Positions 61,777-64,000 of a DNA stretch of 64,000 bases are shown one piece after another. The stretch is from the NCBI GenBank assembly GCA_903898785.1, contig CAIUGU010000176.1:1-64000 (forward strand). Reading direction: 5' to 3'. The notes beneath the pieces were generated by a model that was given only the letters and a program-made list of their open reading frames with translations, was not told the origin of the DNA and made no database searches. The DNA is from an uncultured Pseudomonadota bacterium (GTDB taxonomy: Bacteria > Pseudomonadota > Gammaproteobacteria > Steroidobacterales > Steroidobacteraceae). Every line of letters begins with the position of its first letter. Position 1 is the stretch's first letter. The position numbers were made by a program, and so were the translations under genes.

Positions 61777-62415
61777 TTACCAGCGCAGCACACGGCCGCC
61801 TATGGCGGCTGATACGGAGGTCACGATGGCCACGGCCAGCGTGTACCAGACCGCAACAAACAGCGGGCTGTCGTCATCACAATGCAGCGCGTAGAACGTT
61901 GCCCCAATGCCGGCAGCGACCAACCCGCAGACAGCCCCCGCCAATCGTGGACGTGCTGGCGCCCCTCGCTTCATCGCCAGCATCAACGCCACCGCGGACG
62001 GTACCGAAAGCAGTGGAATCGCGCCAAGGCACAGAAAGGCATTGGACCCCACCAGGCTGTCCCACCACCGATCCGCAGGCAGTGCCAGCAGTTCCAGAAC
62101 GACGGCCAGCAGGATCAGCAGCGGGGCAGCGCCCACCGCTCGATGCGGCAGCGAACCGCCATCGACCGGACTGGCCATGCGGACCAGGAATGGCGCCGTC
62201 GACATGACGATGGCCAACGTGACCACGAACTTGAACGGGAAGCGGATCGTGCCGATTGCGGTGCCGATATCGGGACGCCAGCCCATGGACATCAAGAACA
62301 TGCCGGCAGTGACCACCGCACCCGCGAGCACCGATCCATAGAAGCGTCGCCGGGTGGAGCCCATGCCCGCGTATGAATCGGCAGACAGTGCAGCAATCAG
62401 GTCGGTCGTCTTCAT
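61777..62415 (-). CDS. nrsF: NrsF-type anti-sigma factor (DUF1109)
   Basis: A 212-residue inner-membrane protein with six predicted helices starting at about 30. It begins MKTTDLIAALSADS, the usual cytosolic N-terminus of the DUF1109/NrsF family, which binds and silences a SigF-type ECF sigma factor. Two Cys in the loop near the C-terminus (VCGLVAAGIGATFYALHCDDDSPLF) match the Cys used by Caulobacter NrsF to sense metals or oxidants. The ATG at 62415 is 4 bases after the sigma-factor stop; they form a sigma/anti-sigma operon. Confidence 0.9.
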   Translation of the reverse strand: MKTTDLIAALSADSYAGMGSTRRRFYGSVLAGAVVTAGMFLMSMGWRPDIGTAIGTIRFPFKFVVTLAIVMSTAPFLVRMASPVDGGSLPHRAVGAAPLLILLAVVLELLALPADRWWDSLVGSNAFLCLGAIPLLSVPSAVALMLAMKRGAPARPRLAGAVCGLVAAGIGATFYALHCDDDSPLFVAVWYTLAVAIVTSVSAAIGGRVLRW

Positions 62416-62419
62416 GCTG

Positions 62420-63004
62420 TCACCCACCCCGGTAGCGCTCGGCCAGCAGCTTCAGGCTGCGATGCAGGCTGACCCGCACGGCGACCTCGGTCATGCCGAG
62501 CTTCTCCGCCACGTCGCGCACCGGCTTGCCATCGATAGAGATCGAGCGGACGATTTCCTGCTGCCTGTCGTTCAGCGAACCCAGCACTTTCTCGGCATCG
62601 TGGTGCGCAGAACCCTCGTTCGCGGCGCCGTCGGCCAGCGTGTCGGCAAGATCATCGATCTGGATGTCGGTACTCCTCCCCCTTCGCCGCAACGAGTCGA
62701 CAAGCTTGTAGCGCGCAATAGCCGTCACCCACGGCCCCAGGGATCTCGTCCGATCCCACGTTCCGCGCTTCAGGTGGATGGCCAGCAATGTTTCCTGCAC
62801 GACGTCCTCGATTTCGGCATTCCCGAGCCCAACTCGCTCGAACCCGCGCCTGGCCATACCGCGCAATGCGGGGGTCAGGGAGATGAGCAACCGACAGTAA
62901 GCCTGGCTGTCACCCTCAATGGCCGCGAGCATCAGCTGCGTCCATTCGAGCTCCCTTGCAGCATGCGCAGGGTTCCCCCTCTGTCCTTCGTTCCCATTGG
63001 TCAT
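62420..63004 (-). CDS. sigF: ECF sigma factor, SigF type
   Basis: A 194-residue sigma factor with region 2 (about 28-90: AYCRLLISLTPALRGMARRGFERVGLGNAEIEDVVQETLLAIHLKRGTWDRTRSLGPWVTAIARYKLVDSLRRR) and region 4 (about 132-190: LNDRQQEIVRSISIDGKPVRDVAEKLGMTEVAVRVSLHRSLKLLAERY). The RWVTAIARYKL.DxLRR pattern and nrsF partner identify the SigF-like ECF group. The ATG at 63004 has a TGTAACA-type motif ending three bases before it, so the leader is very short or translation depends on an unusual initiation region. It divergently adjoins bufA1. Confidence 0.9.
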   Translation of the reverse strand: MTNGNEGQRGNPAHAARELEWTQLMLAAIEGDSQAYCRLLISLTPALRGMARRGFERVGLGNAEIEDVVQETLLAIHLKRGTWDRTRSLGPWVTAIARYKLVDSLRRRGRSTDIQIDDLADTLADGAANEGSAHHDAEKVLGSLNDRQQEIVRSISIDGKPVRDVAEKLGMTEVAVRVSLHRSLKLLAERYRGG

Positions 63005-63006
63005 TT

Positions 63007-63022
63007 TGTTACAGGGCCGTCG
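63007..63022 (-). promoter_or_regulatory. CGACGGCCCTGTAACA motif upstream of sigF
   Basis: It is the inverted twin of the motif at 63128-63142 (one extra C). On the minus strand it ends 3 bases before the sigF ATG. Two matching motifs next to both start codons suggest shared regulation of the divergent genes. Confidence 0.4.
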
Positions 63023-63080
63023 CAACGGGCGCACGGTCGCGCTCCGGACGGGTCCCGGAGAACAATTCGTGGTATTCGAT

Positions 63081-63108
63081 GTAACAAGTGCGGGATGGCA
63101 TGCGACGG
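63081..63108 (+). promoter_or_regulatory. Candidate SigF-dependent promoter of bufA1
   Basis: GTAACA at 63081-63086, a 16-base spacer, CGACGG at 63103-63108. This fits the GTAAC-N16-CGA pattern recalled for Caulobacter SigF promoters. It predicts a leader of about 45 bases before the bufA1 ATG, which has AGGAG 8 bases upstream. Confidence 0.6.
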
Positions 63109-63127
63109 AGTCATCATAGGCCAATCC

Positions 63128-63142
63128 CGACGGCCTGTAACA
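63128..63142 (+). promoter_or_regulatory. CGACGGCCTGTAACA motif upstream of bufA1
   Basis: It lies in the predicted bufA1 leader, 16 bases before the ATG. It mirrors the element at 63007-63022. Confidence 0.4.
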
Positions 63143-63158
63143 CCAGAGGAGATCTACA

Positions 63159-63467
63159 ATGCTGAACCGCCGCTCGATCAATCTCGCCCTTATCGGCTCG
63201 CTCGCCACTGCAATCGCATCCATTGGTACTGCCGTTACAGCCCATGCGGCTGATGCTGCCAACCAGGACAAGTGCTTTGGCGTCGCGCTGAAGGGCAAAA
63301 ACGACTGCAAGGCAGGCGAAGGCACCACCTGCGCCGGCACTTCCAAAGCCGACTATCAGGGCAATGCCTGGAAGCTCGTTCCGAAGGGCACATGCACGAC
63401 GATGGAACTCCCCGGCGGCCGCAAGGGTTCGCTGACGGAACTTGCCCGCGACGTGCCGAAGGCCTGA
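63159..63467 (+). CDS. bufA1: Bufferin precursor BufA1 (DUF2282)
   Basis: A 102-residue precursor of a bufferin, a ribosomally made, post-translationally modified periplasmic metallophore. It has a signal peptide (1-30, ending TAHA) and a core with four Cys (39, 50, 58, 79) in the DUF2282 frame [17 protein letters not shown]...[26 protein letters not shown]. In known systems an MNIO enzyme converts core Cys to thiooxazoles so the peptide can bind copper. The MNIO gene (bufB) follows 93 bases later. A strong AGAGGAG site precedes the ATG. Confidence 0.93.
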
Positions 63468-63560
63468 TGCGTCCCGGCTGCGATTCCCGTGCACATTCAT
63501 GGCGTGCGGGTGTCGCAGCCGCTTGTTCGGCATCTCGCCCTTCCACCACCCGGAACATCA

Positions 63561-64000
63561 ATGACCACGCGAAGCGCAGGCTCGACTGGAGACCTCAAGT
63601 CAGGCGTGGGCCTCAAGGCGCAGCACTACAAGACCATTCTGGACTCGCGGCCCGCGGCAGGCTTCTTCGAGGTTCACGCCGAGAATTTCATGGGTGCGGG
63701 CGGGCCACCGCACCGATATCTGGAGGCCATCAGGACACACTACCCGCTGTCGATCCACGGAGTCGGCCTCAACATCGGCGGCAGCCAGCCGCTCGACCGA
63801 CTGCACCTGCAGAGACTGAAGCAACTGCTCGACCGCTACCAACCCGAGCTGTTCTCCGAGCACCTCGCCTGGTCATCTCACGGAGGCACGTTCCTCAATG
63901 ACCTGCTGCCCCTACCCTATACTCCTTCAACGCTCGATCTCGTCTGTAGCCACATCGACGAAACGCAGGCATTCCTCGGTCGCCGAATGCTCCTCGAGAA
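63561..64000 (+). CDS. bufB: MNIO-family bufferin maturase BufB (DUF692), 3' end cut
   Basis: The first 146 residues of a DUF692/UPF0276 multinuclear nonheme iron oxidase (full length about 280). Motifs: [80 protein letters not shown], with His/Glu residues that act as iron ligands in the family. It should modify Cys in BufA1, normally with a DUF2063 partner (BufC) beyond the window. The ATG at 63561 begins [15 protein letters not shown]. Confidence 0.92.

Follow-up and report, generated by a model that had tools for sequence, protein, structure and literature searches.

The locus at the end of the window (the whole 64-kb stretch of DNA that was analysed) is most probably a Buf1 bufferin operon under SigF/NrsF regulation, serving tolerance to excess copper and perhaps to other thiol-binding metals, a reading that we hold with a probability of about 93%. 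Its assignment as a SigF/NrsF-controlled Buf1 cluster follows from the agreement among the gene families, the operon order, the cysteines, the form and spacing of the promoters and the conservation in relatives. The locus is a further complete copy of an already described system, as found in Caulobacter; what is new locally is a doubtful sigF start and the absence of the locus from a sister species. As a clean and complete example, the locus extends the record of a known copper-response system and leaves the working picture of bufferins unchanged.

Gene content and conserved residues

The genes, their order, two promoter sites, and the conserved cysteines together with their conservation were observed directly (Table 1). 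The nrsF-sigF pair on the minus strand diverges from bufA1-bufB-bufC-doxX on the plus strand, and both the ORF listing and Pfam place the ECF sigma gene next to a gene for an NrsF-family membrane anti-sigma factor. The earlier note had described this divergent arrangement as far as bufB; all of these genes lie where it had placed them, and the Pfam families agree. Its view that precursor, maturase and dedicated regulator stand together was likewise borne out by the DUF2282, MNIO_BufB and SigF/NrsF assignments. The note had also recognised that the locus runs off the window and had made its reading depend on a downstream bufC. The source contig extends to position 68989 and includes the complete operon, with bufC and doxX following bufB past position 64000.

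Table 1. Features of the sigF-nrsF/buf locus (positions counted from the first nucleotide of the window).
Feature	Position	Strand	Evidence
nrsF, membrane anti-sigma factor family	61777-62427	-	Pfam PF06532, E 3.8e-52, residues 24-216
sigF, ECF sigma factor	62420-63004	-	Pfam Sigma70_r2 and Sigma70_r4_2; NCBIfam PRK12512
Predicted SigF promoter of sigF-nrsF (autoregulation), GTAACA-N16-CGAA	62987-63012	-	Pattern scan; relatives
Predicted SigF promoter of bufA1BC-doxX, GTAACA-N16-CGAC	63081-63106	+	Pattern scan; relatives
bufA1, Buf1 bufferin precursor	63159-63467	+	Pfam DUF2282 (PF10048), E 1.4e-24
bufB, MNIO bufferin maturase	63561-64454 (window ends at 64000)	+	Pfam PF05114, E 2e-106; NCBIfam MNIO_BufB
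bufC	64441-65226 (past window end)	+	DUF2063, PF09836, E 7.7e-25
doxX	65226-65723 (past window end)	+	PF07681, E 1.3e-17

The genes are tightly packed: the 3' end of sigF shares 8 bases with nrsF, bufC overlaps the end of bufB by 14 bases, and the start of doxX overlaps the stop codon of bufC. The gene after doxX lies on the opposite strand and encodes a penicillin-amidase family enzyme of 812 aa. An ORF of equal length at 1089-3527 was considered as a duplicate of this amidase and rejected, as it encodes an unrelated TonB-dependent receptor.

All six products of the locus scored above the curated Pfam cut-offs. PRK12512 was the top NCBIfam model for SigF (237 bits; cut-off 198), and BufB reached 385 bits with MNIO_BufB (cut-off 310). 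At the level of NCBIfam equivalogs, NrsF scored 83 against the NrsF cut-off of 300, and BufC and DoxX fell below the cut-offs for HvfC and HvfX, respectively. DUF2282, MNIO and NrsF were each represented by one copy in the genome, which is 78% complete.

The four cysteines of BufA1 (Cys39, Cys50, Cys58 and Cys79) were all present in each of the 61 aligned precursors. Inspection of the translation revealed a basic start, a hydrophobic stretch and a cleavage-type site (AHA-AD) at the N-terminus, fitting a Sec signal. Among 53 BufB sequences, the invariant positions comprised His, Asp, Glu and Asn residues, with H66, H101, E146, D179, H210, D228, H230, E257 and D259 invariant or nearly so. The nearest solved relative of BufB by sequence was the DUF692 protein 3BWW; the corresponding search of solved structures with BufC gave no match. 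In NrsF, Cys133 (21/21 aligned rows) and Cys183 (22/22) formed the only cysteine columns conserved across the 22 rows, among which the Caulobacter sequence was not included. Caulobacter NrsF, a protein of six helices, likewise has two conserved cysteines, C131 and C181.

Predicted paired SigF-type promoters and the sigF start

For Caulobacter, the SigF site has been published as GTAACC-N16-CGAA (PMC3511200). The bufA1 site differs from this consensus at two positions (GTAACA, CGAC) and the sigF site at one. The earlier note had proposed a candidate SigF promoter upstream of bufA1, which the pattern scan recovered; its account was incomplete in that the second site, facing sigF, had been overlooked. 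The pattern GTAACM-N16-CGAM matched twice in the whole window, both times at the sigF/bufA1 locus, against 0.17 ± 0.40 matches expected from shuffled windows, where two matches were reached in one of 100 shuffles. On the bufA1 strand, a promoter scan was negative for sigma-70-like promoters.

In relatives with divergent sigF and bufA genes, 17 of the 18 loci had a site equivalent to the bufA1 promoter, against a chance expectation of 0.015 to 0.15 hits per region. Sites facing both ways with a 16-base spacer were present in 11 of these loci, and a single bufA-facing site with a 15-base spacer in six; the remaining locus had none. The present locus adds weight to the view that paired SigF promoters generally characterise Buf1-type clusters. 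A group of relatives (L036, L037, L038, L040, L041 and L042) carried the bufA-side promoter only, with the 15-base spacer, and had a more divergent NrsF. The combination of the shorter spacer and divergent NrsF suggests a distinct SigF subgroup.

The start codon of sigF is doubtful. Here and in most relatives, the conserved SigF sequence begins near the end of the sigF-side site, and the listed ATG (63004) lies inside the predicted sigF promoter; because the promoter spans this codon, transcription probably begins downstream of it. The frame offers its next ATG at 62932 (residue 25). As relatives appear to start between the two, neither codon is ideal. This is a matter of annotation without biological novelty.

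Relation to known systems and alternative readings

In Caulobacter crescentus/vibrioides, CC3252-CC3257 comprise the same six genes in the same divergent order, preceded in both units by a SigF promoter of the 16-base-spacer form, and their expression depends on SigF in C. crescentus (PMC3511200). The Caulobacter sigma factor is held by NrsF and freed upon metal stress, and the two NrsF cysteines are required to hold the regulon down to its basal level (PMC3511200). The regulon is induced by copper and required for copper tolerance (PMC8224329), and the thiooxazoles of C. vibrioides Buf1 chelate Cu(I) and Cu(II) (PMC12452194). In this peptide, the central cysteines are modified and the outer two are joined as a disulphide. 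The earlier note had implied novelty for the locus, a claim that finds no support given the same layout and promoter in Caulobacter (PMC3511200) and the published findings that copper induces the regulon and that loss of sigF causes sensitivity to copper (PMC8224329). Nor is the regulator link new, since a genome survey has already reported that genes for the sigma factor and NrsF co-occur with Buf1 clusters (PMC12452194).

By homology with Caulobacter, the signal, SigF release, cysteine modification and copper binding can be proposed for the present locus as follows. NrsF would keep SigF at the inner membrane until metal, acting via the two conserved NrsF cysteines, leads to its release. Freed SigF would then transcribe the two divergent units, sigF-nrsF and bufA1-bufB-bufC-doxX. 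BufB, a presumed iron-dependent MNIO enzyme, and its partner BufC would convert C50 and C58 of BufA1 to 5-thiooxazoles. BufA1 would be exported by Sec and form a C39-C79 disulphide, and the exported peptide might buffer periplasmic copper.

Other clusters resemble the locus in part. In Cupriavidus metallidurans and Legionella pneumophila, the gig ("gold-induced genes") operons are bufferin clusters according to the literature (PMC12452194) and are induced by Au, Ag and Cu (PMC8224329); the comparison with the present locus was made at the level of published descriptions. The fontiphorin/oxazolin (captophorin) MNIO-PME1 clusters, in which Cys is converted to 5-thiooxazole, also combine an MNIO enzyme with a DUF2063 partner and often DoxX. 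Their precursors, however, contain EGKCG repeats, whereas the precursor here is a DUF2282 protein with four cysteines.

The same operon might respond chiefly to another metal (chromate, cadmium or gold) or to oxidative stress, with the cargo differing accordingly. Caulobacter SigF does respond to dichromate and cadmium (PMC3511200), and related clusters owe their gig name to gold (PMC8224329, PMC12452194). However, loss of sigF in Caulobacter severely affects growth in copper while leaving sensitivity to chromate and cadmium close to that of the wild type (PMC8224329), and the ability of Caulobacter Buf1 to chelate both copper ions (PMC12452194) also speaks for copper. We therefore regard a principal signal and cargo other than copper as unlikely.

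It is highly improbable that the SigF-like sites arose by chance and that the operon is run by a housekeeping promoter or another regulator. Such sites were not enriched across the genome, where the strict pattern matched seven times and the reversed control pattern 20 times, but two of the seven matches are divergent and lie at the sole locus encoding SigF and NrsF. Their recurrence far above chance in related loci and the result of the promoter scan on the bufA1 strand also argue against coincidence. Still harder to credit is a decaying or non-functional remnant: although the locus can be dispensed with, as the only other species of the genus examined (G017) does without it, all six genes here have open frames, and the key cysteines, the BufB invariants and both promoters are retained.

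Whole-genome promoter scans left a wider SigF regulon undefined, loose and strict patterns both being rarer than the reversed control. Caulobacter possesses, in addition, another bufferin cluster (CC2905-2907) and MsrPQ-type genes that depend on SigF, whereas the 78%-complete genome studied here gave single copies of DUF2282, MNIO and NrsF. Three MsrP-like molybdopterin oxidoreductase genes were considered as regulon members and rejected, as none was on a contig with a strict match. Elsewhere in the genome, the gene for an AhpC/TSA-type redoxin (L014 1501-2148; G000:C67:19732 onward), which is probably secreted, has a strict site (GTAACA-N16-CGAA) 55 bases upstream; given the seven strict matches against 20 for the control, this site could be due to chance. 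It is doubtful, if conceivable, that the SigF regulon of this lineage departs from that of Caulobacter in comprising the bufferin operon and this redoxin in place of MsrPQ repair genes. If true, copper buffering would be paired with periplasmic thiol redox control.

Distribution, apparent loss in a sister species and other regions of the window

Alpha-, Beta- and Gammaproteobacteria all include genomes with bufA-bufB-bufC, mostly together with doxX, and many of these genomes have a sigF-nrsF pair in divergent orientation to the cluster. Within the taxonomic family of the window, NrsF matches occurred in 29 of 120 sampled genomes. In a tree of BufB, the window sequence grouped with no single lineage, and the tree did not settle the question of horizontal transfer.

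Neither NrsF nor MNIO had a match in G017 (99% complete), the sister species named above. There, the equivalent of 53265-61728 joins the equivalent of 67280 onward within about 10 bases (junction at L107 5535-5545). The absent segment, from 61729 to contig position 67279, covers the entire sigF-nrsF-buf-doxX block and, at its far end, the 3' half of the amidase gene, and the amidase match in the sister species ends at the junction, at residue 421 of 812. An amidase that is intact in the window genome but truncated in the relative is most simply explained by a deletion in the latter; the whole locus was apparently lost from the sister species in this way. A mis-assembly in the sister species would also account for the absence, though less simply. 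The locus-free species provides a naturally occurring contrast for studies of copper tolerance.

Elsewhere in the window, a 587-aa protein (8860-10623, minus strand) gave a sub-threshold match to a contractile phage tail sheath C-terminal domain (24.2 bits, cut-off 26.9) and adjoins a LysM/YkuD protein at 10832-12373. A 717-aa frame at 31109-33262 (minus strand) combines a dual-specificity phosphatase-like domain with a following ADP-ribosylglycohydrolase domain.
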